A stretch of DNA of 32,775 nucleotides, taken from Opitutaceae bacterium. Lineage in GTDB: Bacteria; Verrucomicrobiota; Verrucomicrobiia; Opitutales; Opitutaceae. Below are positions 18,070 to 32,775 of this stretch, in pieces. Location of the stretch: positions 1-32,775 of the forward strand of contig JACSRI010000095.1 of the NCBI GenBank assembly GCA_014879845.1. The letters run 5' to 3'. Numbering within the stretch: the first letter of the stretch is position 1; the number at the start of each line of letters is the position of its first letter. Below the pieces are notes generated by a model. It saw nothing but the letters and a program-made list of their open reading frames with translations, was not told the origin of the DNA and did no database searches. A program made the translations under genes and the position numbers.

Positions 18070-18420
18070 TCAATGCCCCCCGGGAGGGCGCCGGTCGACG
18101 CGATCCTCGTCGACCTCGAGCGCTCCGTGCCGCGGGTAGCCACGCTCCACCACGACCCGAGCCAGGAGATGACTTGCGACGGGAATGGTCAGGAACTGAA
18201 AGAACACGGCGGCGATCACCTTCAGGCCGGCCAGCTCAGTCCCCAAGCTCAGCCACAGGCTGACGAGCAGCATCGAGACGCCCAGCGTCATGCCCTTGCC
18301 CAGCGCATGCGCGCGGCAGAGCGCATCGGGCAGGCGGACCAGCCCCACCATGCTGATGAGGATGACCAGCGCACCGCCCAGGCCCAAGGCCGCAGTCAGG
18401 ATGTCGCGCCACGCACTCAT
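18070..18420 (-). CDS. mrpG: Mrp cation/proton antiporter subunit G
   Basis: A 116-residue, three-helix membrane subunit of the Mrp complex. ILTAALGLGGALVILISMVG, then LVRLPDALCRAHALGKGMTLG (helix 1 and loop) are the family hallmarks. The start at ATG 18420 overlaps the mrpF stop by four bases (ATGA), so translation is coupled. The tail GALEVDEDRVDRRPPGGH is hydrophilic and cytoplasmic. It is the last gene of the operon in the canonical order. Confidence 0.92.
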   Translation of the reverse strand: MSAWRDILTAALGLGGALVILISMVGLVRLPDALCRAHALGKGMTLGVSMLLVSLWLSLGTELAGLKVIAAVFFQFLTIPVASHLLARVVVERGYPRHGALEVDEDRVDRRPPGGH

Positions 18421-18725
18421 CGATGCGGACCCTCCGTTCCCTTGTCTGGCCCGCGGGCCGCACCGACCTCGGCACGCTGCAGGTAGGCGGCGAACGCCAC
18501 CGTTCCGAAGAAACCCAGCGACGAGACGATGAGGATCAACTCGAGGAAGTGCGGCGTGCGCCAGAAATCGGAGAGCAACACGGTCAATCCAACCGCGCAC
18601 AGCACGACCGCATCGAACGCCAGGATACGATCGACGATGGTGGGGCCGCGCGCGAGGCGCACGACTCCGAGCAACGCCGCGACCACGAGCACACCGAAAG
18701 CCAGGTTGAGAACGAGTTCGGTCAT
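18417..18725 (-). CDS. mrpF: Mrp cation/proton antiporter subunit F
   Basis: A 102-residue, three-helix subunit. The stretch RLARGPTIVDRILAFDAVVL is diagnostic of MrpF/PhaF. The helices span about 4-22, 36-53 and 62-82, and the length matches the family. It begins four bases after the mrpE stop and overlaps mrpG by four bases, consistent with a single polycistronic message and stoichiometric assembly. Confidence 0.92.
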   Translation of the reverse strand: MTELVLNLAFGVLVVAALLGVVRLARGPTIVDRILAFDAVVLCAVGLTVLLSDFWRTPHFLELILIVSSLGFFGTVAFAAYLQRAEVGAARGPDKGTEGPHR

Positions 18726-18729
18726 GGTG

Positions 18730-19206
18730 TCACCGCGTGAAAGAGAGGATGCCGCGCCGCAACGTGCGGTCGATCTCGAGCCGGACAGCCTCGGGGTCCG
18801 GCGCGTCGAGCACGTGCAGCAGCAGGTGGCTGCGGTCCGCGGCCACGTCGACCGTCGTCGTGCCCGGCGTGAGGCTGATGCAGTGCGAGAGGAGCAGGAC
18901 TTCCGTCTGCGTGAGCCCGCGCACGTCGTAGGTGATCAACCGCGGACGCAGCGAGCGCACGGAACGGAAGAGCGAGACCACGACGAGTTGCCAGCAACTC
19001 AGGGCAAAGGCCCAGGCAAACAGCAGGAGGAACGCGCCAAACCCGATCGCGCGCCGCACATAGTCGCCGCTCCCGAGAATGGGCTGGAAGAGCGCGAGCA
19101 GCACGAACCCGACGACCCAGCCCGTGAGCAGCACGACCGGCGCGGCCGAGCCCTGCAGCAGCATCCAGATGATGGCGACAGCGACATTGATCAGGACCGA
19201 TTTCAT
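18730..19206 (-). CDS. mrpE: Mrp cation/proton antiporter subunit E
   Basis: 158 residues. Two or three N-terminal helices (VLINVAVAIIWMLLQGSAAP onward) precede a cytoplasmic domain with LTQTEVLLLSHCISLTPGTT, the conserved MrpE signature, and a C-terminal HVLDAPDPEAVRLEID. The length is normal for the family. The start overlaps the mrpD stop by four bases. MrpE stabilises and completes the antiporter complex rather than forming the main pathway. Confidence 0.92.
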   Translation of the reverse strand: MKSVLINVAVAIIWMLLQGSAAPVVLLTGWVVGFVLLALFQPILGSGDYVRRAIGFGAFLLLFAWAFALSCWQLVVVSLFRSVRSLRPRLITYDVRGLTQTEVLLLSHCISLTPGTTTVDVAADRSHLLLHVLDAPDPEAVRLEIDRTLRRGILSFTR

Positions 19207-20711
19207 GGCGCAGCCACGGCCTCCCCTGCCGCGCCCAGCACCAGACGCACGTACCCTTCCTGGTCAAGCACCTCGCGCGCCGTCTCAAAGGCAAGGTCCA
19301 TGAACGGCGCGGCCCCGAGACCGATCGCGAGCGAGAGCACCACCATCCCGCCGGTCACCGCCGCCATGCCGCGCCAGCGGCCGTCGTCGCGGCGCACGGG
19401 GACGGACGGATCCTCGGCCCAGAAGCTGGTGTTCCAGATCTTCAGCATGCTGAAGAGCGTCAGCACGCTCGCGACGAGCGACAGGACGACCAGCACCCAC
19501 TGACCCTGGCGCACGCCCTCGACCACGATCATGTATTTTCCCCAGAAACCCGACAGCGGCGGCAGGCCTGCCAGCGACAGTGCGGGCAGGAGGAAGAGCA
19601 GCCCGACCACCGGCATCGTGCGCCAGAGGTTGGCCGAGCGGTCGAGATCATCGCTGCGGTTGAGCACGCCGACCACGCCGCCCGCCATGAAGAGCGAACT
19701 CTTCACGATGATGTGGTGCACGATGTAGAACACCGCCGCCGCGACGGCGTATTCGGTGAAGAACCCGATCGCGAGCACCATGAAGCCGATCTGGCTGAGG
19801 ATGTGGAAGGAAAGGATCCCGCGGATGAAGTTGCGCGAGACCGCCCCGAGCACGCCGAGGATCATGGTCAGTCCGGCCAGCCAGGCCAACGCCGCGTGCA
19901 GGCCCGTGAGGTCGTGCGGCAGCAGTGTGCCGCAGGCGCGCAGCAGCACGTAGACACCGACCTTGGTCAACATGCCCGAGTAGAGCGCGGCGACTGGCGC
20001 CGGCAGGATCGGATAGGCGTTGGGGAGCCAGTAGTAGAGCGGGAAGACCCCGGCCTTGATGGCGAAGACGGTCAGCAGCAGCACCGCCCAGGCCATGACG
20101 CGCGGGTCTCCGCTCATCTCCACCGCGCGCGCGGCGATGCCGGCGAAGTTGAGCGTGCCGAACAACCCGTAGGCCAGGCCCGCCGCCCCGAGGAAGAGCG
20201 CACCGCCGACGAGGTTGACAGTGAGATAGGGCAACGCGTGCTTCACGTCGCGGTCATCGGCCTCGAGCGTGAGCAGCGCATAGGACGCGATCAACATGAC
20301 CTCGAACGCGACGAAGAGGTTGAAGAGGTCGGCCGTGGCGAAGGACAGCGAGATGCCCGCCACCAGGAACTGCACCAGCGGCAGGCGCAACGGATGTTCG
20401 AAACGCACCGGCTGCTGGGCGAATCCGTAGAGCATCGACGCGAGCGCCGTGATCGCACCGAGCGTGAGCATGATCGCCGAAAGGCGATCGACGATGATCG
20501 CGATGCCATAGGGCGCGGCCCAGCCGCCCACCCCGAGCACGGCCGGACCGTGCGTCCGCGCCGAGTCGACGAGCACGAGCGCGAGCACGAGCTGCGCGAG
20601 GCCGACGAGCGCGAAGGCGACGCGACGCGCCGTGCCGCACCGCCACCAGAACAGGCCGACCACGCCGGCCAGGGCCGGCACGATCACGGGCATGACCGCG
20701 AGGTTGTTCAT
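19203..20711 (-). CDS. mrpD: Mrp cation/proton antiporter subunit D
   Basis: A 502-residue proton-channel subunit homologous to complex I NuoM/NuoN. A conserved membrane Glu lies in VAFEVMLIASYALLTLEADD, a helix-embedded Lys in LLLTVFAIKAGVFPLYYWLP (about 212-231), and a second Lys-bearing helix in LYSGMLTKVGVYVLLRACG. HHIIVKSSLFMAGG and GLPPLSGFWGKYMIV are also family hallmarks. It has about 14 transmembrane helices. It overlaps both mrpC and mrpE by four bases. It conducts protons in exchange for Na+ handled with the other large subunit. Confidence 0.95.
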   Translation of the reverse strand: MNNLAVMPVIVPALAGVVGLFWWRCGTARRVAFALVGLAQLVLALVLVDSARTHGPAVLGVGGWAAPYGIAIIVDRLSAIMLTLGAITALASMLYGFAQQPVRFEHPLRLPLVQFLVAGISLSFATADLFNLFVAFEVMLIASYALLTLEADDRDVKHALPYLTVNLVGGALFLGAAGLAYGLFGTLNFAGIAARAVEMSGDPRVMAWAVLLLTVFAIKAGVFPLYYWLPNAYPILPAPVAALYSGMLTKVGVYVLLRACGTLLPHDLTGLHAALAWLAGLTMILGVLGAVSRNFIRGILSFHILSQIGFMVLAIGFFTEYAVAAAVFYIVHHIIVKSSLFMAGGVVGVLNRSDDLDRSANLWRTMPVVGLLFLLPALSLAGLPPLSGFWGKYMIVVEGVRQGQWVLVVLSLVASVLTLFSMLKIWNTSFWAEDPSVPVRRDDGRWRGMAAVTGGMVVLSLAIGLGAAPFMDLAFETAREVLDQEGYVRLVLGAAGEAVAAP

Positions 20712-21100
20712 CGCCCGGCCTCCTGTGTCGGAGCCTTGGGAGCTGCCGGTTCACGACCCGGCGCGTCGGCGAAGAGTTCCTCGGCATCCGCCGTGCCCTG
20801 GTCGAGAAAAGTCCGATACAGCAGCACCACGAGATACGCGATCACACCGAACCCGATCACGATCGCCGTGAGCACGAGCGCCTGTGGCAGCGGATCGACC
20901 GGCGGCAGACCACCCACTGCGTCGCCGACGATCGGCACCTTCCGCCCCCGTGGCTCGCCCGAGGCGAGCAGGACGAGCAGGTTGATGGCGTTGGAGAGCA
21001 GAACGAATCCAAAGAGGATCCGCACGAATCCCGGCTGCAGGATCAGGTAGACCGCCACGGCCACGAGGAGCCCGACGAGGATGCACGTCTCAATCAGCAT
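20708..21100 (-). CDS. mrpC: Mrp cation/proton antiporter subunit C
   Basis: 130 residues, a NuoK homologue with three helices. The ATG at 21100 is chosen because MLIETCILVGLLVAVAVYLI opens the first helix; the longer frame upstream gives an Arg-rich leader unlike any MrpC. GFVLLSNAINLLVLLASG and DPLPQALVLTAIVIGFGVIA are the family signatures (NuoK-like Glu replaced by Asn-type helix, second motif PQALVLTAIVI). It overlaps the end of the fused A-B gene by 11 bases and mrpD by four. Confidence 0.94.
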   Translation of the reverse strand: MLIETCILVGLLVAVAVYLILQPGFVRILFGFVLLSNAINLLVLLASGEPRGRKVPIVGDAVGGLPPVDPLPQALVLTAIVIGFGVIAYLVVLLYRTFLDQGTADAEELFADAPGREPAAPKAPTQEAGR

Positions 21101-24092
21101 GACGCACCCTCCTCGCGGTTTCGCCGGCCGCGGCGACCGGCCCCTCGATCGGCTCCTCCACGCTCGAGGCGTAGCGCCGCGTCTCCTCGCCCGAGAGCGC
21201 GCCGAGGCCATCAACTGAGCGCGCGAGCACGAAGACCAGCTTGCACGTCACGCCCACCACCACGAGGTACACGCCCACGTCGAAGACCAGCGGTGTGCCC
21301 ACGGCAAGATCGCCGATGAACGGGAGTTCCTTCAGCTTCCAGTTCCAGTGCTTGAGCAGCGGCTGCCCGAGCAGCACCGGCACGACCGCCGTCGCAAACG
21401 CGATCGCCAGACCCGTGGCCGCCACGCGCACCGGATCGGCCCGCAGGACGCGCTGCGCCCGCTCCACGCCATACGCCAGCGCGAGCAGGATGAACGACAG
21501 CCCCGACCCGACGCCGGCGATGAAACCGCCGCCCGGGACGTTGTGCCCGCGCCACAGCAGATAGAGCGCGAAGATGTTGATGAGGAAAAACAGGATCGCC
21601 GCCACCGTGCGGAAGATGATCGAGCGATCGCCCGTGATCCCCGCGCCGGATGGGGCCGCGACGACAGCCTCGCCGCCGCGTGCGATCGTCGGAGTCCCCG
21701 CGTTCGCCGCATCATCCATCCCGGCTTCGCCCGGCAGCGCACCGCGCGTGTCAGTCGGACGCCTGTGCCGAGTCAACAAGCCCAGCACGCCGAGCGTCGC
21801 GATGCCCAGCACCGTGACCTCAAGCAGCGTGTCGAAACCGCGGAAGTCGACGAGGATGGTGTTCACCGCATTGGTGCCCTTCGCGAGCGGGAGCGAGTTG
21901 GCCAGGTAGAACTGCCCGGCCGGATCACCGTGCCGCTCCGAGACGACCGCGAACGCGAGCACGGTCACGACGATGCCCGCGCCCGCCGCCAGCGCCACAT
22001 GGAGCACGCGCCGGGCCGGGCGCACCGCGCGGCGCTGTTCGCCCGCCTCGACCGAGCGCGGGAAACGCGCGAGCAGCAGCATGACAAAAACAAGCGTGGC
22101 GGCCTCGATGAGGATCTGCGTGAGCGCGAGATCCGGCGCGCGAAAGAGCACAAACAGGAAGGTGACGAGAAAGCCCACGATCGAGAGCGCGATCAATTGC
22201 CCCGACCAGCGCGGGAGCGCGAGCACCAGGGCCATCGCCACGACGATGAGTCCGCCGACAAAAGCCCGCAGCGGGTCCACCGGCGCCTGCGCGGCCTTCT
22301 CGACGAAAGCGCCGAAGAGCCCCCCTTGCCACAGCGCAGCGCCCAGCGCCACGACGACGAAGCCGAACAGGATTGGCAGAAAGTCCGCCGGGCGGTCGGC
22401 ACGCAGCAGCGCGGTCACGCGCTTGGCCACCTTGGGCAATGCCGCCACCGCCGCCTCGAAGCCGCGGTCAAAGCGCATCCAACCCGGCACGACAGCCGCG
22501 CGCCAGTCGGTCGCGCGCATCAGCGCGTAGACTGCGGCTCCCGAGGCCACGATCGCGAGGCTGAGCACGAACTCGCGCGTCACGCCGTGCCAGAGGTGCA
22601 GGTCCGTGATGTCCGGCAGGTGCAGCCCCGGCACGCTCAGCGTTCGCAGCGCCGGCGTCATGAGCCCCGGTGCCAGGCCGAACACGAGGCAGCCGACCGC
22701 GAGGATCGTCGGCGGCACTTGGATCAACCACCCGGGCCGATGAAACTCCTCCGCCATGCGGCCCGGCATTTTCCCCGGAAACACATCGAGCCACAGTCGC
22801 AGGCAGAACGCGACCTTCAGCGCCGAGGCCAGCGCCACCGCCACGAGCGGGAACCAATTGATGAACTCATCACCGCCCCAGTAATCGAACTTCTCCTTGA
22901 GCATGTATTCCTTGCTCACGAAGCCGATCGTGCCGGGCAGTCCCGCCATCGTCGCGGTCGCGACCAGGGCGATGGTGGCGAGAAAAGGCGCCTTGCGTCC
23001 GAGCCCCGCGAGTTCGCGCACATCGCGCGTGCCGGTGCAGTGATCGATGATGCCGGCCACCATGAAAAGGCAGCCCTTGTAGAACACGTGGTTGGCCACG
23101 TGCATGAGGTCGTAGTGGACGCCCTCGCGCGAACCGATGCCGTAGAAGCCAATGAGAAAACCCAGCTGGCTCACGGTCGAGTATGCGAGGATCGCCTTGA
23201 GGTCGGTCGCGCACAGCGCCATCCACGCGCCGAGGATGAGCGTGGTGAAACCCGCCGTGACGAGGAGCGGCGTCCACAACTCGACCTCGCGAAACACCGG
23301 GAAGAGCCGTGCGACGAGGAAGACGCCGAGCTTTACCATCGTGGCCGAGTGCAGGTAGGCGCTCACCGGCGTGGGCGCGGCCATCGCGTTCGGCAGCCAG
23401 AAGTGGAAGGGAAACTGCGCCGACTTGCCGAAGGCCCCCACCGCCACGAGCACGAAGGCCACGGTCACCGAGGGGCTTGACGCGTCCAGATGGCCGCCGG
23501 CCATCAGCTCCGAAATGCGCCACGTCCCCGCCTCGAGGCCGGTCAGGATCAACCCGGCCATGAGCACGAGCCCGGTGATACCCGTGGTCAGCAGCGCCAT
23601 CCGCGCGCCGGCGCGCGAGACGGCCTCACCGTGCAGGAATCCGATGAGCAGGAACGACGCGATGCCCGTCAGCTCCCAGAAGACGAAGAGCAGGAGCACA
23701 TGGTCGGAAAACACCGTGCCCAGCATCGCCGCCATGAAGAGCGCGAGGTAGGCGTAGAAGCGCCCGTGGTGCTCATAGTGGTCGTCGAGATAACCCGCGG
23801 CATAGAGCACGATGAGCGCGCCCATGCCCGAGACGACCAGGCCGAAGAAGAGCGAGAGTCCGTCCGCCAGCAGGTCGATGCCGAGCCCGAGCGCCGGTAT
23901 CCACGGCAAGGATGCCGTGCGCTGGGCCATCGGCTCCTGTCCCGCGGCGGCCAGCGCGACGCATGCGAGCGAGGTCAGCGCGATGGCCAGCGCCGGCCAG
24001 CAGGTGTGGCGGCCGAGCCAGCGACCCGCCACCGCCAGCAGAGGAGCGCCGAGCAAAGGCACGGCCATGGCGGTGAGGAGGAGCGGCATCAT
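21090..24092 (-). CDS. mrpA: Fused Mrp cation/proton antiporter subunits A and B
   Basis: 1000 residues from ATG 24092 (an adjacent ATG at 24089 is equally possible). The first two thirds are a NuoL-like channel: the Glu-bearing helix LLLFVFWELTGIASFLLIGF, the Lys-bearing VAVGAFGKSAQFPFHFWLPN, SAYLHSATMVKLGVFLVARL, and HVANHVFYKGCLFMVAGIID. The region with RAPDLALTQILIEAATLVFV is the MrpA C-terminal NuoJ-like part. The last part (about 830-960), IIFRTVAAILFFLINIFALY followed by HNVPGGGFIAGVGSGL and GVYLVVVGVTCKLVFVLARS, is MrpB. Fusion of A and B defines group-2 Mrp operons. It heads the A-C-D-E-F-G operon and lies 107 bases after the other antiporter gene. Confidence 0.95.
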   Translation of the reverse strand: MMPLLLTAMAVPLLGAPLLAVAGRWLGRHTCWPALAIALTSLACVALAAAGQEPMAQRTASLPWIPALGLGIDLLADGLSLFFGLVVSGMGALIVLYAAGYLDDHYEHHGRFYAYLALFMAAMLGTVFSDHVLLLFVFWELTGIASFLLIGFLHGEAVSRAGARMALLTTGITGLVLMAGLILTGLEAGTWRISELMAGGHLDASSPSVTVAFVLVAVGAFGKSAQFPFHFWLPNAMAAPTPVSAYLHSATMVKLGVFLVARLFPVFREVELWTPLLVTAGFTTLILGAWMALCATDLKAILAYSTVSQLGFLIGFYGIGSREGVHYDLMHVANHVFYKGCLFMVAGIIDHCTGTRDVRELAGLGRKAPFLATIALVATATMAGLPGTIGFVSKEYMLKEKFDYWGGDEFINWFPLVAVALASALKVAFCLRLWLDVFPGKMPGRMAEEFHRPGWLIQVPPTILAVGCLVFGLAPGLMTPALRTLSVPGLHLPDITDLHLWHGVTREFVLSLAIVASGAAVYALMRATDWRAAVVPGWMRFDRGFEAAVAALPKVAKRVTALLRADRPADFLPILFGFVVVALGAALWQGGLFGAFVEKAAQAPVDPLRAFVGGLIVVAMALVLALPRWSGQLIALSIVGFLVTFLFVLFRAPDLALTQILIEAATLVFVMLLLARFPRSVEAGEQRRAVRPARRVLHVALAAGAGIVVTVLAFAVVSERHGDPAGQFYLANSLPLAKGTNAVNTILVDFRGFDTLLEVTVLGIATLGVLGLLTRHRRPTDTRGALPGEAGMDDAANAGTPTIARGGEAVVAAPSGAGITGDRSIIFRTVAAILFFLINIFALYLLWRGHNVPGGGFIAGVGSGLSFILLALAYGVERAQRVLRADPVRVAATGLAIAFATAVVPVLLGQPLLKHWNWKLKELPFIGDLAVGTPLVFDVGVYLVVVGVTCKLVFVLARSVDGLGALSGEETRRYASSVEEPIEGPVAAAGETARRVRHAD

Positions 24093-24199
24093 CGGCTGGC
24101 CCCCATGGTATGCAGCAGCCGGCCAAGTCAACCGCCTCCGGCCGATTGCAGCGCGCGTCACTCACGCCATCAGCGCCGCGCACGACGGCGCGACCGCCG

Positions 24200-25777
24200 T
24201 CAAGGCAGCAGCATGAACGCGAAGCCGAGGATCACCGTGGGCACGAGCGCGCCGAGGAACAGGCCCAGCGGCGACACGCCACCTTCGAAAAAGCGCTGCA
24301 GGATCGACTGGCCCGCGGGATTGGGGGCGTTGGCGATGACTGTGAGGCCGCCGCCAGTCACGGCGCCGGCGACGACGGCATACTTCATCTCCGGCGTGAA
24401 CCCGGGCACGAGCGACGCCAGGTAAGTGATGGCCGCGTTGTCGTTGAAGGCTGTCAGCACCGTGGCCCCGAGCATGAGCGGGAGCGTCGACAAGCTGCCG
24501 AGCACCGGCTCGATCCACCACTGCTGCAGCCCGCCGTGGATCACCAATCCGGCGAGGAAGAAGCCGACGAGCAGCGCAGGCTTCAGTTTCACGTCCTCCT
24601 GGTGGTGAAAAGTCGTGGTGACGAAGGCCAGGAAGAAGAGGAAACCGCCGATGAAGAGCGACGGGTAGTGTGCGGTGAGCACCGTCCAGGCCATGAAGGC
24701 GAGATGCACGGCCGTGACCCACACCGGCACGGGCCAGTCGTGTTCCTGCCAAGGAGTCTCGCCGCCGTCCGCCTCGCGGCGCACCGGCACCGCCCGATGT
24801 GCAGCCAGCGCGCGCAGTTCGCGCCGAAACCAGACGAAATAGAGGACGTTGCACACGAGGATGCCGACCACGGCCTTCCAGCCGAGATTCATGAACATGA
24901 ACCCCAGGCCCCACTGCCACTTTGCCGCCACCATCAGCACGGGCGGCGCCGCGAAATGGGTGAGCGTGCCGCCGACCGACACGTTGACGAAGAGCAGGCC
25001 CAGGGTCGCATACTTGAGCGCGCGCCCAGGGTGATATTCGAAGAAACGACGCGCGAGGAGCAGCGCGGAGATGGTCATCGCGGCCGGCTCGGTGATGAAC
25101 GAGCCCAGCACGGGTCCGACCGTCAGGATGGAAAACCACCAGGCCGCCGGCGTGCTGCCACCCAGTCGCGCGAAGCGGGCCATGACCTGCTCCGCGAGGC
25201 GCACGACCGGTCGCGTCGCCGCGATGGTCATGATCACGACGACAAACAGCGGTTCGGTGAAGTTGACGCCAAACCCGACATACTCCTCGGCCGTGTGAAA
25301 ATCGTGCGTGATCGTGATCGCCACGATCAGCGGGATCACCCACAGGCCAAAAATCGCCTCCACCTCGCCGAGGAGGTGCAGCACCTCGGCCTTGAAGCAG
25401 ACGGCATCTTCCTTGAACGGCCGGCCCTCGCGCCGGGCCCGGTCGCGCTCCGCAGCCTGCCGCTCCTCATGCGCGTGATGGGCCTTGTGGGCGATCGCCC
25501 GGATCGGCCCGGCGCAGAAAGTGTGGATGATCGCGCACAGGAAAAGGAGCGACGCCACGAGGTTGAAGGGCTGCTCCTCGATGCGGTGCCGGAGCACTTC
25601 GCCCAGCGCCATGCCCGACTCTTCCGCCACGTAGGACTCGAGCGGTGCAGGGAAGCCGGCGGCAGCCTCGTCGCCCTTCGCCCCCGCGGCCCGGGTCGCG
25701 ACCGCGGAAGAAAACCACGCGGAGAGAACCACGAGGACCAACAGAAGGTGACGGCCGATGGTGTTCGCCCAAAGCAT
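24200..25777 (-). CDS. Putative Na+/H+ antiporter (PF07399-type)
   Basis: 525 residues from ATG 25777; a GTG two codons upstream is also possible. It belongs to the ion-transporter-like family annotated as putative Na+/H+ antiporter. The N-terminal hydrophobic signal (LLLVLVVLSAWFSSAVATRA) is followed by a roughly 60-residue extracytoplasmic segment, and there are about 11 further helices. Conserved polar helix breaks include GSFITEPAAMTISALLLARR, FVNVSVGGTLTHFAAPPVLM, LTAFNDNAAITYLASLVPGF and VIANAPNPAGQS; these resemble the ion-binding pairs of NhaD/CitM-type carriers. A charged cytoplasmic loop (EERQAAERDRARREG) follows the second helix. It lies upstream of and co-directional with the Mrp operon and may be co-transcribed, giving two mechanistically different antiporters under one control. 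Transport specificity is inferred. Confidence 0.82.
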   Translation of the reverse strand: MLWANTIGRHLLLVLVVLSAWFSSAVATRAAGAKGDEAAAGFPAPLESYVAEESGMALGEVLRHRIEEQPFNLVASLLFLCAIIHTFCAGPIRAIAHKAHHAHEERQAAERDRARREGRPFKEDAVCFKAEVLHLLGEVEAIFGLWVIPLIVAITITHDFHTAEEYVGFGVNFTEPLFVVVIMTIAATRPVVRLAEQVMARFARLGGSTPAAWWFSILTVGPVLGSFITEPAAMTISALLLARRFFEYHPGRALKYATLGLLFVNVSVGGTLTHFAAPPVLMVAAKWQWGLGFMFMNLGWKAVVGILVCNVLYFVWFRRELRALAAHRAVPVRREADGGETPWQEHDWPVPVWVTAVHLAFMAWTVLTAHYPSLFIGGFLFFLAFVTTTFHHQEDVKLKPALLVGFFLAGLVIHGGLQQWWIEPVLGSLSTLPLMLGATVLTAFNDNAAITYLASLVPGFTPEMKYAVVAGAVTGGGLTVIANAPNPAGQSILQRFFEGGVSPLGLFLGALVPTVILGFAFMLLP

Positions 25778-26149
25778 ACGCACGCCCGTCGTTGTCAGAG
25801 GATTCCCGCCTGCGGCAAGCGCAAGGTCGCGTGGCCGTGCGATTTATCGCACGGCGCGAATCACGCGGCGATTGGATTAGGGCGTGTTCTCAACCCGACG
25901 CTTGGTCCCCGGACTGCCAGAGCTGCGACACGAGGTGTTGGCGTTCCTTGGAGGGCCGCGCTCCCGCGCGGCCGCGCACACAGCGACGCGTCCGCACGTC
26001 GCCCGGTGACCCAACGCCGCTCGTGCGCGCGGCGGTGCGGCAGCACCACCCTCCACGCTGGCGCCGCGATCGCCGGCTGGGAGGGCCCGCGGCTCACTAC
26101 TTGCCAACGAGCCGCGACTTTGCTGCGCTCCGCCCCTTTCCATCCAGCC
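25778..26149. other. Divergent intergenic region with two palindromes
   Basis: These 372 bases separate the divergent antiporter and DUF1015 genes and must hold both promoters; I cannot assign -35/-10 elements. It contains a perfect 9-base-pair hairpin ccgtgcgat-tt-atcgcacgg (25835-25854), a REP-like hairpin (next entry), and a looser stem cgcggctc/gagccgcg just upstream of the DUF1015 start. No credible gene is seen. Confidence 0.6.
25949..25975 (+). repeat. Third copy of the GGAGGGC-type REP-like hairpin
   Basis: The sequence GGAGGGCCGCGCTCCCGC followed by GCGGCCGCG shares the head GGAGGGC, the central GCTCC and the tail GCCGCG with the two units at the dnaE2 5' end. The stem is ggccgcg/cgcggcc with a six-base loop. 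It is a single copy here, in contrast to the inverted pair near 3100. Confidence 0.6.
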
Positions 26150-27588: not shown

Positions 27589-27602
27589 TTGACCGGGGTC
27601 AA
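27589..27602. promoter_or_regulatory. Perfect Crp/Fnr-type operator, TTGAC-N4-GTCAA
   Basis: The 14-base string TTGAC-CGGG-GTCAA is fully palindromic and fits the general Crp/Fnr superfamily pattern (Fnr TTGAT-N4-ATCAA; nitric-oxide regulators of the Dnr/NnrR type tolerate C/G at the inner positions). Its centre is about 89 bases before the cytochrome ATG; if it acts as a class II activator site (centre near -41.5), transcription would begin near 27637 with a leader of about 48 bases. The -10 region cannot be recognised by eye. Confidence 0.6.
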
Positions 27603-27684
27603 ATTCCGCCGCGAAAACACTCTCCCGGGCGATGTGAATCGGTAGCGTGGCGGTGGCCTACCCCGCCCGGATCGACTTATCGCC

Positions 27685-29883
27685 ATGCCTTCCCCCGACC
27701 CCTTGTCAGTCGCGGGCGCGCCGCCGCAGGTGCGCCTGTCCGCCCACGGCTGGACGTCGCGTCTCACGCTCGTCGTCCTCGCGGGCCTCGCGCTCGAGAC
27801 GGCTACGGGTTTCTGGACGCTGTTCGCGCCCTTTTCCCTCCTCGGGCAGTTCCAGGTGCTGCTTCACACCGTCGCAGGGCTTCTGCTCCTGACGCCTTAT
27901 GCCGCCTATCAACTGCGCCACTGGCGCGACTGGAGCGACCAGACGCTCTCCGTGGTCAAGGTCCTCGGCTATGCCGCGATGGTCGTGACGCTGGGGTGCA
28001 TGGCCAGCGGGCTCGTCGTCTCAGCCCAGGCGCTGGTCGGGCGGCGTATCACCGTGTTTTGGGATCGGATACATCTGACCACGGGCCTGGCGACCGGCGC
28101 CCTCGTGGTCATCCACCTCATCATGGCCTGGGTGCGCCGCCGCGACCACCTGGCCCGTCTCGACGGATTCCCGTCCGCGCTGCGCCGCCGGCGTCGGCTC
28201 GGAGTCGCCGTGCTCGCCGCGCTCTACGCCGCCGTCGTGCTGGCACTGTCGCTCGCGCCCCGCGTGGCGGCGACACTGCCGATGCCCACGGACTACACCA
28301 TGCCGGAGTATGCTCAGCAGTTCGCCGAGTATCGCGGCAGCCCCTTCGCGCCGAGCTTTGCGCGCACATCCACGGGCGGGTTGGTCAACCCCGCCGTCCT
28401 CGGCGGCTCCGACTCCTGCGGCACCGCCGGCTGCCACGAGCAGATCCACCACGAGTGGCTGCCGAGCGCCCACCGATTCTCCGCGATGAATCCGCCGTTC
28501 CAGGCGGTGCAGAGGAGCTTTGCGGACGACCGCCACCCGGCCGAGACGCGTTACTGCGCGGGGTGCCACGACCCGATCTCGCTCTTCGCCGGCGCGAAGG
28601 ACATCCACAACCTCAGCCTTTCCGCGCCCGGCATGCAGGAGGGCATTTCCTGCATCGTCTGCCACACCATCTCGCACGTCGATGAGCGGGGTAACGCCGA
28701 CTACGTGCTCACGCCACCCGCGCGTTACCTCGGCGAGGGCACGACCGGCCTGACCAAACGCATCTCCGACTTCCTGATACGCGCCTACCCGCGCCAGCAT
28801 CTCGCCGACTACGACCGGAACATCCTGCGCACCCCCGAGTTCTGCGGCGCGTGCCACAAGCAGGTCATCCCCGAGGCGCTCAACCGCTTCGGCGCGAGCC
28901 CGGCGCAGAACCAGTTCGACGAGTGGCGCAAGAGCCATTGGCACAACTCGATGGAACCGGACAAGTCGCTGAGTTGCCGCGACTGCCACATGCGCCTGGT
29001 CCACGGGTCGACCGATCCCGGCGCCGGCGAAGGCGGCGACCTGCGGCGCGCGGCCGGCGACGGCGCACACCGCCACCACGGGACGATCGCAACCAATCTC
29101 TTCATGCCCGAAGTGCTCCAGCTGCCGGAGCGCGAGCGCCACGTCGCGCTCACGCGCGACTGGATCGAGGGCCGCACGGTCATCCCCGAGATCGCGCATC
29201 TCTGGCCCGAGGGCCCGGTGGCTGCGGTTGAGATCGAGGCCCCGGCGACGGCCGCGCCCGGCGAGATCCTCGAGTTCTCGGTCTCGATTCGCAATCGCAA
29301 GGCCGGGCACAACTTCATCACCGGCCCGCTCGATTTCCTGCGCGCCTGGCTGCACGTGACGGTGGAGGACGCCGATGGACACCGGCTCGCCGAATGGGGT
29401 GGGATCGATCCAGTGACGCGCGACATCCTCGATGAGCCCGGCGCGATCCACGAGGCCGGTCGCCCGCGCGACGCCGGCACGCTCGTGCTCGAGAGTATTC
29501 CCGTCGACGACCAGGGCGCACCGATCCTCCGGCACGAGCTGTGGCGCAAGGCCGGTGCCGCCGCCACACGCATCGTGGTCGCGCGCTACAGCGACCGACA
29601 GGTCTACCGCGTAGCCGTGCGCGACGGCGCGCGGAGTCCGTTGCGCGTACGCGCCGACCTGAACTTCCGCCGCTACCGGCAGGAGTTTCTCAACCTCGTG
29701 CTCCCGGAGATGGAAAGCGAGAGCGGCGTCTATCAGCCGACGCTAACCAAGGACTCGGCCACGCGCGAAATCCCGCTCGCCGACGCCGTCGCTCCGGCCT
29801 CCGCATCCGCGCCCGCGGCCGCCAGGAGCGATGGACCGAGCGCTCCGCTCGCTGCCGCAGCACCCTCGATCCGCGCACGCTGA
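27685..29883 (+). CDS. Membrane b-type cytochrome fused to a five-site multiheme cytochrome c
   Basis: 732 residues. The N-terminal 195 residues form about five membrane helices (near 26-47, 53-75, 88-113, 128-150, 172-194). His61 and His79 in or near helix 2, and His130 and His144 in helix 4, are well placed to bind two b hemes. The exported part has a CX4CH site (Cys245-His251) and four CXXCH sites: CAGCH 291, CIVCH 323, CGACH 387, CRDCH 431, with additional His residues for bis-His ligation. This resembles the cytochrome c554/NrfB-like multiheme class. The final 270 residues are a beta-rich domain (EILEFSVSIRNRKAGHNFIT) and an Ala/Ser/Pro-rich tail. It probably passes electrons between the quinone pool and a periplasmic partner; the direction and substrate are unknown. 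It is preceded by a Crp/Fnr-type site and followed after five bases by the FG-GAP gene. Confidence 0.85.
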   Translation: MPSPDPLSVAGAPPQVRLSAHGWTSRLTLVVLAGLALETATGFWTLFAPFSLLGQFQVLLHTVAGLLLLTPYAAYQLRHWRDWSDQTLSVVKVLGYAAMVVTLGCMASGLVVSAQALVGRRITVFWDRIHLTTGLATGALVVIHLIMAWVRRRDHLARLDGFPSALRRRRRLGVAVLAALYAAVVLALSLAPRVAATLPMPTDYTMPEYAQQFAEYRGSPFAPSFARTSTGGLVNPAVLGGSDSCGTAGCHEQIHHEWLPSAHRFSAMNPPFQAVQRSFADDRHPAETRYCAGCHDPISLFAGAKDIHNLSLSAPGMQEGISCIVCHTISHVDERGNADYVLTPPARYLGEGTTGLTKRISDFLIRAYPRQHLADYDRNILRTPEFCGACHKQVIPEALNRFGASPAQNQFDEWRKSHWHNSMEPDKSLSCRDCHMRLVHGSTDPGAGEGGDLRRAAGDGAHRHHGTIATNLFMPEVLQLPERERHVALTRDWIEGRTVIPEIAHLWPEGPVAAVEIEAPATAAPGEILEFSVSIRNRKAGHNFITGPLDFLRAWLHVTVEDADGHRLAEWGGIDPVTRDILDEPGAIHEAGRPRDAGTLVLESIPVDDQGAPILRHELWRKAGAAATRIVVARYSDRQVYRVAVRDGARSPLRVRADLNFRRYRQEFLNLVLPEMESESGVYQPTLTKDSATREIPLADAVAPASASAPAAARSDGPSAPLAAAAPSIRAR

Positions 29884-29888
29884 AACCG

Positions 29889-31739
29889 ATGTCCGCCCGT
29901 CCGCGCCTCTCGCCGCGCCAGCGCCGTCTCGTGCTGGCCACCGTCGCCACCGTGGCCGGCACGAGCTTGATCGGCCTCGCCGTCTGGTGGATCGAGGCGC
30001 GCCGCAGCACCGATCTCGCCGACGCCCGCGCCGGCGTGACCTCGACCTTCACCGCGGAGGCGCGCGCCGCGACCACGCCCGTGCGCTTCACCGACGTGAC
30101 CGCGGCCGCCGGCATCGCGATGCGTCACGGCGCGTCCGCCCGCCGACGCGCCCTGCCGGAGGACAACGCCTCCGGGCTCGCCTGGGGCGACTACGACGGT
30201 GATCGCTGGCCCGACCTCTATGTGGTCAACCACCCGGGAATCCTTGGCGATCCGGCCGATCCCGCCCACGCCAACCGCCTTTTCCGCAACCGTGGCGACG
30301 GCACCTTCGAGGACGTGACCGAACTCGCCGGCGTGGGCGACGCCGCCGGCTTCGGCATGGGCGCGACCTTTGTCGACTACGACGCCGACGGCCACCTCGA
30401 CCTGCACGTGACCAATCTCGGCACCGATCGCCTGTATCGTAACAATGGCGACGGCACTTTCACCGATGTGGCCGCGCGGGCGGGCGTGGCCAGCCCGCTC
30501 TGGAGCACCGGCGCGGCCTGGGGCGACTACGATCGCGACGGGCATGTCGACGTCTACGTCTGCCACTACGTCGACTACGACGCCGCCGGACGCGAGCCGC
30601 CCGCCGCCGTCGGCAGCTCGGGTCGCGCCGGCGACTACGAGGCGCCCTACACCATCAATCCCAGCGCCTTCAATCCGCAGCCCAACACCCTGTATCGCAA
30701 CCGCGGCGACGGCACCTTCGAGGACGTCACCCGCGCGACCCGTGTCGCCGACCCCGACGGCCGCAGCCTCTCGGCCACCTTCTGCGACCTCGACGGGGAC
30801 GGATGGCTCGACCTCTACGTGGCCAACGACGTCTCGCCCAATCGCCTCTTCCGCAACACCGGTGGCGACTACGCGGCCACCGGCCCGGGCGAAACCGGGG
30901 AGGACTTTCCCGTCACTTTCATCGACCTCTCCGCCTTCACCGGCACGGCCGACACGCGGGGCTCGATGGGCATCTCGGTCGGCGATTTCGGCGGGCTGGC
31001 CGGGGAGGCCGACGATCTGCCCGACCTCTTCCTCTCCCACTGGCTCGCCCAGGAGAACGCCCTCTACCTCAGCCTGCGCGGCCGGTCGGGGCAGCTCGAA
31101 TACCGCGACCGCGCCCGCCCGCTGCGTCTCGGTGAGGTCTCGATCGACCGCGTCGGCTGGGGCACGGCCGTGCTCGACATCGACCTCGACGGACGCGCCG
31201 ACATCGCGGTGGCCAACGGCAGCACGCTCGAGCGGCCTGAGGACGGTTACCGGCTCAAGCCCGAGCCAATGTTTCTCTTCGTCAACGACGGCGACGGATT
31301 CCGCGACATCGCACCCATCGCCGGCGAGGCGACCGCCATCCCGCGCAATGCCCGCGGACTCGCTGCGGCGGACTTCGACTGCGACGGCGACATCGATCTC
31401 GCCCTCGCCGTCAACCAGGGCAGTCCGGTGTTGCTGCGCAACGACACCGAACGCGGCGGCCACCACGCACTCAGCATCAGACTCGCGGGTCCGGAGGCGC
31501 TCGCACGCGGCGCCCGCATCGAGGTGCATCAGGGCACCCGACATCAGCTGCGCTGGTGGGCGGCCGACGTTTCCTACCTCAGCGGCCATGCGGCGGAATC
31601 GATCTTCGGCCTGGGCGACAGCCCGCGCGCCGATCTCGTGCGCGTGCGCTGGATGGATGGCCGCGTGACGGAGATTCGCGACGTGCCGGCCGGAGACGTG
31701 CGCCTCGCGCACGCCGATGCTGTCATGCCCGCTCCATGA
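29889..31739 (+). CDS. Exported FG-GAP/VCBS repeat protein with ASPIC/UnbV domain
   Basis: 616 residues of the CRTAC1-like type. The start at ATG 29889 lies five bases after the cytochrome stop, indicating one operon. An Arg-rich N-terminus and one helix (about 14-33, LVLATVATVAGTSLIGLAVW) form a signal anchor. At least six calcium-loop repeats follow, forming a beta-propeller: DYDGDRWPDLY, DYDADGHLDLH, DYDRDGHVDVY, DLDGDGWLDLY, DIDLDGRADIA and DCDGDIDLA. The last 70 residues (ARGARIEVHQGTRHQLRWW, then SYLSGHAAESIFGLGD and VRVRWMDGRVTEI) are the ASPIC/UnbV module. The protein is likely extracytoplasmic and calcium-stabilised. It has no catalytic motif I recognise; a scaffold or partner role for the multiheme cytochrome is inferred from the operon. 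Its last 17 bases overlap the convergent regulator gene. Confidence 0.88.
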   Translation: MSARPRLSPRQRRLVLATVATVAGTSLIGLAVWWIEARRSTDLADARAGVTSTFTAEARAATTPVRFTDVTAAAGIAMRHGASARRRALPEDNASGLAWGDYDGDRWPDLYVVNHPGILGDPADPAHANRLFRNRGDGTFEDVTELAGVGDAAGFGMGATFVDYDADGHLDLHVTNLGTDRLYRNNGDGTFTDVAARAGVASPLWSTGAAWGDYDRDGHVDVYVCHYVDYDAAGREPPAAVGSSGRAGDYEAPYTINPSAFNPQPNTLYRNRGDGTFEDVTRATRVADPDGRSLSATFCDLDGDGWLDLYVANDVSPNRLFRNTGGDYAATGPGETGEDFPVTFIDLSAFTGTADTRGSMGISVGDFGGLAGEADDLPDLFLSHWLAQENALYLSLRGRSGQLEYRDRARPLRLGEVSIDRVGWGTAVLDIDLDGRADIAVANGSTLERPEDGYRLKPEPMFLFVNDGDGFRDIAPIAGEATAIPRNARGLAAADFDCDGDIDLALAVNQGSPVLLRNDTERGGHHALSIRLAGPEALARGARIEVHQGTRHQLRWWAADVSYLSGHAAESIFGLGDSPRADLVRVRWMDGRVTEIRDVPAGDVRLAHADAVMPAP

Positions 31740-32172
31740 CGGCACGGCGGACGCATGTCAGCGGCCGGGCCGCCGCCGGCACGGCAAGTGTCGTGTCCCG
31801 CAGGAAGCGAATCCAGCGGCTCGTGACGCCGTGGAGCGAGGCGTGCAGCGGACACGGTGCCATCGCCTCATTCCCGACGGCCCCGAGCGGGCAGCGCACA
31901 TGGGGCTTCGCCGACTCGAACACCGCCGCTATCTCGGCCAGCGAGATGTCCTGAGGCGATCGCGAGAGGCGGTAGCCGCCGTGCAGTCCGCGCGTCCCCC
32001 GGACGAGGCCCGCATGCGCGAGCCGCCCGAGGATCTTGGCCACGAACGCACGCGGCAGCCGCTGCTGGCGCGCGACTTCGCAGGCGGTGAGGCAACCGGC
32101 GTCGGCACCGGCCGCGCGGGCAAGGCACGCCATGACCCAGAATGCCGACCAGGTCGTCCGACGACAGTGCAT
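31723..32172 (-). CDS. Rrf2-family transcriptional regulator with altered cysteine cluster
   Basis: 149 residues from ATG 32172; GTG 32181 would add three. A winged helix-turn-helix of the Rrf2 family: EVARQQRLPRAFVAKILGRL (about 32-51), then GLVRGTRGLHGGYRLSRSPQ (about 55-74), the standard wing. Members such as IscR and NsrR bind an iron-sulfur cluster through three cysteines in the next loop. Here that loop, CPLGAVGNEAMAPCPLHASL, has only Cys94 and Cys107; the middle Cys is absent, although Cys3, Cys16, Cys27, Cys31 and Cys140 occur elsewhere. It could bind a cluster with an unusual ligand, sense redox by disulfide, or be cluster-free. It follows the DUF2249 gene by 21 bases (12 from GTG) on the same strand and is convergent with, and overlaps, the FG-GAP gene. 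Confidence 0.85.
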   Translation of the reverse strand: MHCRRTTWSAFWVMACLARAAGADAGCLTACEVARQQRLPRAFVAKILGRLAHAGLVRGTRGLHGGYRLSRSPQDISLAEIAAVFESAKPHVRCPLGAVGNEAMAPCPLHASLHGVTSRWIRFLRDTTLAVPAAARPLTCVRRAVMERA

Positions 32173-32193
32173 CAGGGACACAGTACGCCAGCG

Positions 32194-32706
32194 TCAACTT
32201 GCGACGGCACGCGACGGTCCCGCGGGAGCATGCCGGACCGAGACGATCCACGTCCCCTCGCCCGCGTATTCGCAGAAGTGCTCGAGCCCGCGACGCCGCA
32301 GGCCGCGCAGCACGGTGTCCGGCCGTCCACGCACACACCCGTGCACGACCGAGCCCTGCCGCCCGGTTTCGAGGGCCGCGAGCAGACGCCGGGCAGCCCG
32401 GTCCGGCTGCGGCGCGAGGCGCACGACCGAGGCCAGCGCCGGCGACCGCGGAACCTCGCGTCGATGAAGCGGATCTGGGCCCAGCCGGCGCACCGCGACG
32501 TGGCAGCGTCCGGCCGGATCACCCACCCGATTCCACGCGAAGACGCCCTCGCGGGAGTGGAAGAACTTGTGCAGCAGCGCCAGCGGCATCGTCGGAGCGA
32601 CGAGCAGCAGCACCGTGCCGACCTCGAGGGCGGCCCAGGCAAAGGCCAGCGCTTCCTCGTGCTCGGCTTCGGGGATGGTGGTGAGATCCAGGCGTGACTC
32701 GGACAT
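32194..32706 (-). CDS. Protein with two TusA-like DUF2249 domains
   Basis: 170 residues from ATG 32706 (MSESRLDLTTIPEAEHEEAL); the frame extends upstream but with unrelated sequence. Domain one (about 5-76) fits DUF2249: LDLTTIPEAEHEEALAFAWA, LLLVAPTMPLALLHKFF, then FAWNRVGDPAGRCHVAVRRL. Domain two (about 85-157) repeats the layout with a TusA-like sequence: PQPDRAARRLLAALETGRQG, RGRPDTVLRGLRRRGL, EYAGEGTWIVSVRHA. DUF2249 proteins are small cytoplasmic proteins often found next to Rrf2 regulators, hemerythrins and nitric-oxide or denitrification genes; their biochemical role is unknown. Here it forms a two-gene unit with an Rrf2 regulator. A TTGAC half-site lies about 30 bases upstream of the start (32736-32740), within the last 69 bases of the window, where I see no further gene. 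Confidence 0.78.
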   Translation of the reverse strand: MSESRLDLTTIPEAEHEEALAFAWAALEVGTVLLLVAPTMPLALLHKFFHSREGVFAWNRVGDPAGRCHVAVRRLGPDPLHRREVPRSPALASVVRLAPQPDRAARRLLAALETGRQGSVVHGCVRGRPDTVLRGLRRRGLEHFCEYAGEGTWIVSVRHAPAGPSRAVAS

Positions 32707-32775
32707 AGGCCAGGGGTGCGCGGGTTGGGACGGGGTTGACTGCGACCATGATTCCGACAGCAGGCGCATCGCCCC

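Follow-up and report, generated by a model that had tools for sequence, protein, structure and literature searches.

What does a gene that joins a probable diheme b-type membrane domain to a multiheme c-type domain contribute to respiration, and which signal acts through the Crp/Fnr-type operator in front of it? These questions arose from a preliminary description of the window, by which we mean the whole stretch of 32,775 nucleotides analysed here (contig JACSRI010000095.1 of an Opitutaceae bacterium, hereafter the host). The gene (27685..29883, + strand) encodes a fusion protein of 732 residues in which a diheme-b domain, a pentaheme-c domain and an Ig-like domain follow one another, and the ATG at 27685 is the sole start of its frame past the upstream stop. 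Together with the gene that follows it, it forms a real two-gene respiratory unit, made of a b/c-heme membrane protein and a propeller-like partner. An assembly or gene-calling artefact was discarded, as the identical protein type is encoded on contigs from many genomes.

The membrane half consists of five helices spanning approximately residues 25-190 (27757..28254, + strand), modelled by AlphaFold2 with pLDDT values of 76-93 by ten-residue block. Four histidines of this domain, H61 (27865..27867), H79 (27919..27921), H130 (28072..28074) and H144 (28114..28116, all on the + strand), are kept in all 19 close sequences aligned, window included (18/19 for H61, L014 being truncated there), and are also invariant in 17 distant homologues, 36 aligned sequences in total. 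In the model these four residues lie in two helices, as in DUF4405 and cytochrome b561-type proteins. As loops 2 and 4 are positively charged and the segment after helix 5 is negatively charged (loops set by hand from the AlphaFold2 model), the positive-inside pattern would put these two loops in the cytoplasm and the c domain outside. From this topology, H61 and H130 are proposed to bind a b heme on the periplasmic side and H79 and H144 a second one on the cytoplasmic side. The suspicion that the membrane histidines might vary among homologues was thus dispelled, a single truncated sequence aside.

Profile searches carried out separately on each half gave a divided answer. In the c half, PF14522 and PF13435 were found over their cut-offs, and at E 0.001 they were present in 16/16 and 15/16 members, respectively. 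The membrane half of the window protein remained below the cut-off of PF14358 (DUF4405; E 3e-4, 21.6-21.7 of the 26.7 bits needed); this profile was detected at E 0.01 in 9/15 fusion members, window included, and PF01292 matched the membrane half weakly. Structural comparison with cytochrome b561 (4o6y) gave a Z of 7.6, level with unrelated entries, and the Foldseek hits of the full-length model, with unrelated large proteins at the top, were set aside.

The c half carries five c-heme motifs, all on the + strand. Motif 1 is of the CX4CH type (CGTAGCH, 28417..28437), a spacing found in the 19 close sequences and in eight distant ones of type 2 (see below) and replaced by CXXCH in nine of type 3. 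The four others are of the CXXCH type: CAGCH (28555..28569), CIVCH (28651..28665) and CRDCH (28975..28989), whose Cys and His are invariant, and CGACH (28843..28857), conserved in 18/19 close sequences, Tyr replacing the second Cys in L016. The complete set is accordingly found in 18/19 close sequences. As the preliminary description had announced, one chain does hold a diheme-b membrane domain and a multiheme c domain, the latter with five motifs.

Downstream of the motifs, an Ig-like domain (residues 510-700; 29212..29784, + strand) was recognised by its structural match to 5ze8. This structure, T. tepidum cytochrome c552, was the top match of the C-terminal part (Z 11.1, 150 residues aligned over residues 462-696 of the model, 3.4 A); in a second comparison the Z was 11.4, approximately 2 Z units over the next entry. 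The profile built from all subtypes also matched 5ze8 (E 5.6e-7) through the region of hemes 1-3, which is the C554-type first-heme region. Since the structural and the profile matches concern different parts of the protein, they argue together for kinship with the pentaheme cytochromes (PHC). A profile match to MccSep (9wt8) was obtained at E 2e-4. The same E value was returned by the ExtKL model (NF040886 equivalog), yet with scores of only 18.8-19.9 bits against the curated 250. We thus file the fusion with the pentaheme cytochrome family and not with ExtKL. It should be mentioned that the heme region is mostly at pLDDT below 50 both in the full-chain model and in that of the c half alone; modelling the c half alone brought no improvement (mean pLDDT 51).

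How widely is this protein distributed? The host genome holds a single copy of the fusion gene. Three genomes of the same family encode it at 60-68% identity, one of them (EW11) with a distant second copy in addition, and a scan of GTDB contigs yielded 16 loci that align along most of the protein at approximately 50-68% identity (L014 is truncated). EW11 was found in both searches (L010 = G033) and counted once, so that the close set, called type 1, comprises 19 sequences including the window; in one of them, L015, the fusion frame is broken. The subtype names are those of this analysis. The close homologues come nearly all from MAGs and bear seven phylum-level labels: Opitutaceae, Marinimicrobia, Planctomycetota (with Pirellulaceae and Planctomycetaceae), Gemmatimonadetes, Bacteroidetes, Acidobacteriota (with Holophagae) and Deltaproteobacteria. 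Within the host phylum, full-length close forms are rare (5/387 genomes, host counted). Among the Planctomycetota, 191 of the 392 sampled genomes have a match to the fusion profile at E 0.001 or better, many of these being of a distant subtype or partial; at least 15 genomes have a match above 1000 bits, and at least 13 further matches of 400-692 bits cover both halves. Type 2 groups Planctomycetota forms of 28-40% identity with heme 1 as CX4CH (n=8 examined), and type 3 comprises forms with heme 1 as CXXCH, in frames of 931-1065 residues (n=9 examined, second copy of EW11 included). The C-terminal extension of type 3 looks repeat-like by eye. Because the distant Planctomycetota homologues keep the architecture, 15/17 of them together with the partner gene described below, the fusion is not rare. 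The view that joining b and c carriers in one chain is unusual had therefore to be qualified: Planctomycetota use this architecture regularly, and CbcL of Geobacter is a further case.

The second gene of the unit (29889..31739, + strand) begins 5 nt past the fusion stop and encodes an FG-GAP / UnbV_ASPIC ("CRTAC1") protein of 616 residues, with PF13517 (E 5e-44) and PF07593 (E 6e-13) over cut-off; inspection by eye also suggests that its N terminus is anchored in the membrane. The survey of genomic neighbourhoods was rewarding. The CRTAC1 gene comes next after the fusion in 18/19 type 1 loci, the contig ending there in L009, with a gap of -11 to 183 nt (17 loci, without L015, whose frames are broken). 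Among types 2 and 3 the gene lies downstream in 15/17 loci (14 by tblastn, L007 by frame reading); it is missing in the 11 kb of L095, and L100 stops at the contig edge. The distances among fusions and among CRTAC1 proteins are correlated over 17 loci (r 0.78, 0/2000 permutations), a relation to which shared species history may contribute. Besides CRTAC1, no cluster of conserved neighbours was common to more than two loci, based on simple gene calls. To our knowledge, the role of CRTAC1/UnbV proteins has no explanation, and their almost constant association with a membrane cytochrome of seven hemes provides a candidate one. In PMC12758564, CRTAC1 genes are described beside hydrazine-synthase-like genes in other bacteria.

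We then turn to the operator. The sequence TTGACCGGGGTCAA (27589..27602) is an exact TTGAC-N4-GTCAA palindrome of the Crp/Fnr type, just as the preliminary description had it, and its 3' end lies 82 nt before the fusion ATG. It is the only match of the window at one mismatch or fewer, where shuffled windows gave 0.26 matches on average and at least one in 22/100 cases. Relatives were scanned with start codons set by a fixed rule, the window being excluded and two relatives offering less than 250 nt upstream. A box with 9-10 of the 10 bases was found within 250 nt in 4/17 close relatives, at -68, -69, -72 and -74, against 0.2 in shuffles, none of 1000 of which reached 4. Three other relatives have weaker, candidate boxes of 8/10 at -75, -76 and -79. 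Boxes of 9/10 or better are lacking in 13/17 close relatives, ten of which, G020 included, have nothing similar. The palindrome is thus shared clearly by some relatives, weakly by others and not by the remaining ten. As types 2 and 3 have a box of 9/10 or better in only 1/17 cases, at -43 (starts guessed), the operator appears to belong chiefly to the close subtype. A chance palindrome was rejected in view of the window shuffles, of the constant distance in four relatives and of the genome count that follows.

The 5.4-Mb host genome contains 10 TTGAYN4RTCAA boxes, compared to 4 for the reversed pattern. Six of the 10 precede genes, including the present operon. The five others lie before a DUF2249 gene (PF10006), before a gene resembling PLP enzymes by eye, between an azurin-like gene and a divergent Crp/Fnr gene, before an nrfH fragment on the edge of its contig, and at a YwiC operon not far from a second Crp/Fnr gene; this last box reaches into the 5' end of the first frame predicted there. 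The boxes on contigs C9, C54 and C207, within coding frames, and the unassigned one on C185 were counted as chance. A NirK-like gene is convergent to the first Crp/Fnr gene; it should be noted that the azurin-like, nrfH and NirK-like genes all score under the curated NCBIfam cut-offs. In seven carriers, boxes and reversed patterns numbered respectively 12 and 3 in G003, 21 and 8 in G020, 11 and 9 in G033, 4 and 3 in G423, 6 and 1 in G438, 2 and 0 in G433, and 36 and 5 in G435. The genes behind the boxes were read in the carriers G020 and G438 and at one G033 site. In G020, 10/21 boxes fall within 30 kb, where an even spread would give 0.1. A crp gene and COX1/COX2-type genes are found in this stretch, along with nirK, which passes its cut-off, and an azurin-like gene, which narrowly misses its own; the last box of the cluster is situated approximately 1 kb downstream of the fusion operon, and none lies ahead of the fusion. 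EW11 has one box before the fusion and another before a nirK over cut-off. In G438, the genome of L023, genes lie behind 5/6 boxes: besides the fusion, these are a hemerythrin gene, a porin-like gene of the Alginate_exp type and two genes for PF13447 multiheme cytochromes. Two Crp genes lie near two of its boxes, and neither encodes the ETLSR motif.

Two Crp/Fnr proteins were detected in the host by PF13545, a search that regulators without this domain escape, and both carry ETLSR. In oxygen-sensing Fnr, the cysteines of the Fe-S cluster are three near the N terminus plus one. Each host protein has one Cys in its first 30 residues and lacks the Fnr cysteine pattern. Given this and the position of one Crp/Fnr gene between the azurin-like and NirK-like genes, a DNR/NnrR-like regulator seems, judging from sequence, likelier than an oxygen-sensing Fnr. 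The earlier proposal of oxygen- or NO-regulated respiration is partly supported, the box recurring before some relatives and before nitrite/NO-type genes of the host; its narrowing toward NO is our own reading of these arguments.

Co-occurrence did not single out a known pathway. nosZ was not enriched (4/20 carriers versus 5/30 same-family non-carriers), nor was nirK over cut-off (5/20 versus 8/30), and nrfA was matched strongly (E < 1e-80) in 8/20 carriers versus 12/30 non-carriers. Within the host family, nrfA was present in 5/5 carriers versus 12/30 others (P ~0.02, computed with 34 genomes, the true total being 35). The fusion as a classic denitrification marker is thus unsupported, and the missing enrichment of nosZ and nirK points either to lineage-specific partners or to chemistry performed by the module itself.

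Taken together, these results lead us to propose, with about even confidence, that the fusion is a quinol dehydrogenase with seven hemes in one chain, which works as an electron-transfer hub and feeds nitrite/NO metabolism, aided by CRTAC1 and controlled by a DNR/NnrR-like regulator. Menaquinol would deliver its electrons to the two b hemes, one above the other in the membrane with H61/H130 on the outer and H79/H144 on the inner side. The five c hemes of the periplasm would receive them next and supply periplasmic nitrite/NO metabolism, with the help of the FG-GAP propeller partner encoded in the same operon, which may form a complex with the fusion. A DNR/NnrR-like Crp/Fnr protein would turn the operon on together with nitrite/NO genes. 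The sequence itself establishes the fusion with its conserved ligands and five c-heme motifs, the kinship with pentaheme cytochromes, the partner gene and the shared operator, whereas heme occupancy, topology, quinol oxidation, the direction and the acceptor of the electrons, the regulator and complex formation are deduced.

Less likely in our view, the fusion would act as the terminal reductase: fed by quinol, it would reduce NO, nitrite or hydroxylamine at an open c heme, one chain thus corresponding to NrfH-NrfA. The operator, common to the nrfH fragment and to other N-oxide-type genes of the host, is consistent with this, and so is the histidine count: among the columns counted, only four non-motif histidines (H263, H372, H465 and H542) are common to all three subtypes, for five c hemes. 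Pentacoordinate hemes also appear in models of related pentaheme cytochromes, according to PMC11976967. However, type 1, the subtype of the window, keeps H418, H462 and H464 almost without exception, unlike types 2 and 3, so that all five hemes could be six-coordinate, and kinship with NrfA is limited to PF02335 at E 0.02, under cut-off. In its most far-reaching form, this reading would make the fusion a new and widespread class of quinol-linked N-oxide reductases whose own open c heme reduces NO, nitrite or hydroxylamine and of which CRTAC1 is a standing subunit. We consider this form unlikely; if true, it would define an unnamed complex of Planctomycetota, Verrucomicrobiota and other phyla, and CRTAC1 would accompany multiheme enzymes of nitrogen metabolism in general, in line with its hydrazine-synthase-like neighbours.

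An entry point for extracellular electron transfer, similar to Geobacter ExtKL or CbcL and with an operator that merely reports anoxia, appears improbable. The c half is indeed akin to ExtKL and T. tepidum c552, and such a role is proposed for ExtKL in PMC11976967, but no porin-cytochrome genes were found among the 30 neighbouring proteins scanned, which are part of the neighbours, and the box companions are mostly of the nitrite/NO type, though one box in the genome of L023 precedes a porin-like gene. Highly improbable is the oxidative direction, with c hemes oxidising a reduced nitrogen or sulfur compound and b hemes reducing quinone: CRTAC1 beside hydrazine-synthase-like subunits elsewhere (PMC12758564), the boxes before two PF13447 cytochromes in L023's genome and the sulfur role suggested for c552 (PMC11976967) speak for it, but the host box companions look reductive (nrfH fragment, azurin-like gene, NirK-like gene next door) and similarity to hydrazine dehydrogenase was not significant (E 0.98, 0.31 and 0.3).

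The quinol dehydrogenase and hub that we favour can finally be compared with known systems. The pentaheme cytochromes c552, ExtKL, sPHC and MccSep are, as far as is known, soluble proteins, and MccSep (9WT8) is probably a member of the PHC family. Compared to this family, the fusion adds a diheme membrane domain in front, a CX4CH heme 1 and a CRTAC1 gene after it. T. tepidum c552 (5ZE8), Geobacter ExtKL and the cable-bacterium sPHC share with it five c hemes, the first of the C554 type, and the Ig-like domain. PMC11976967 gives c552 no clear function beyond the suggested link to sulfur, ties ExtKL to extracellular electron transfer, and presents the cable-bacterium members as potentially catalytic cytochromes given the pentacoordinate hemes of their models. 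With the DUF4405 / b561-type diheme cytochromes, among which a DUF4405 protein bound heme b (PMC11334425), the fusion shares the four core histidines and weak PF14358/PF01292 matches. It differs from DUF4405 proteins in scoring under the Pfam cut-off and in having a c-type domain fused to it rather than a tie to flavinylation. CbcL resembles the fusion in its b/c domain make-up, a b-type domain in the membrane and a domain with several c hemes sharing one chain; its heme number is unlike that of the fusion, and we know of no CRTAC1 partner for it. CbcL is presented as a Geobacter inner-membrane quinol dehydrogenase in PMC7096707. NrfH-NrfA offers a comparable quinol-to-periplasm pentaheme route and has the same box type in the host. 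It is made of two proteins, with a NapC-type donor and a CXXCK active heme. The hydrazine-synthase-like alpha/beta-gamma clusters (clades I-III in PMC12758564) place CRTAC1 beside genes for multiheme proteins, as here; their cytochrome subunits differ from the fusion, and the likeness is one of gene arrangement. No description of the fusion and CRTAC1 pair was recognised in a search of the open-access literature. The parts are of known kinds, and what seems new is their combination with a near-fixed CRTAC1 partner. The unit connects a sizeable group of orphan proteins with a function that can be tested; if it serves nitrite/NO respiration, it would constitute an extra route that current denitrification and DNRA gene markers do not count.

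Two genes at the end of the contig converge with the operon formed by the diheme-b/pentaheme-c fusion gene and its CRTAC1 partner, and were assigned by profile searches to an Rrf2-family regulator (31726-32181, minus strand) and a DUF2249 protein (32197-32769, minus strand). In the profile search of the Rrf2-family regulator, the NsrR and IscR models both scored below their own cut-offs. A related Rrf2 gene occupies the equivalent position in the homologue locus L008, where it adjoins genes encoding NrfD and Fe-S proteins. Elsewhere in the host genome, on contig C81, a Crp/Fnr-type box stands before another DUF2249 gene, and further DUF2249-like genes were noted by eye in the host and in the related carrier genome G020.

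The window also encodes a putative Na+/H+ antiporter (24203-25783, minus strand; PF07399, E 4e-171), and the adjoining gene run (18070-24161), as judged by eye only, resembles an Mrp-type antiporter operon.

Regarding the neighbours of the fusion operon in relatives, a second FG-GAP gene (L025 5411-7741, reverse complement) is divergent from it in G020. On two Planctomycetota contigs, the genes next after the CRTAC1 partner (L011:12051-14354 and L019:12048-14450) are related to each other, the former encoding the hydrogenase maturation factor HypF. A second form of the fusion is common in Planctomycetota and is represented by L007, L093-L096 and L100-L103. In it the b domain is joined to a c part whose five hemes all have CXXCH motifs, the C-terminus carries a long extension, and the CRTAC1 gene comes next after it in most of these loci.

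In the genome of the relative L023, an operator box stands in front of each of two multiheme cytochrome genes (L070:2992-4518 and L071:1267-2550) whose products match PF13447; both also matched the hydrazine dehydrogenase model with scores below its cut-off. Finally, the family profile of the fusion matches PDB 9wt8 and 9wt9, the solved structures of the multiheme cytochrome c selenoprotein MccSep, over heme 1 (E 2e-4).
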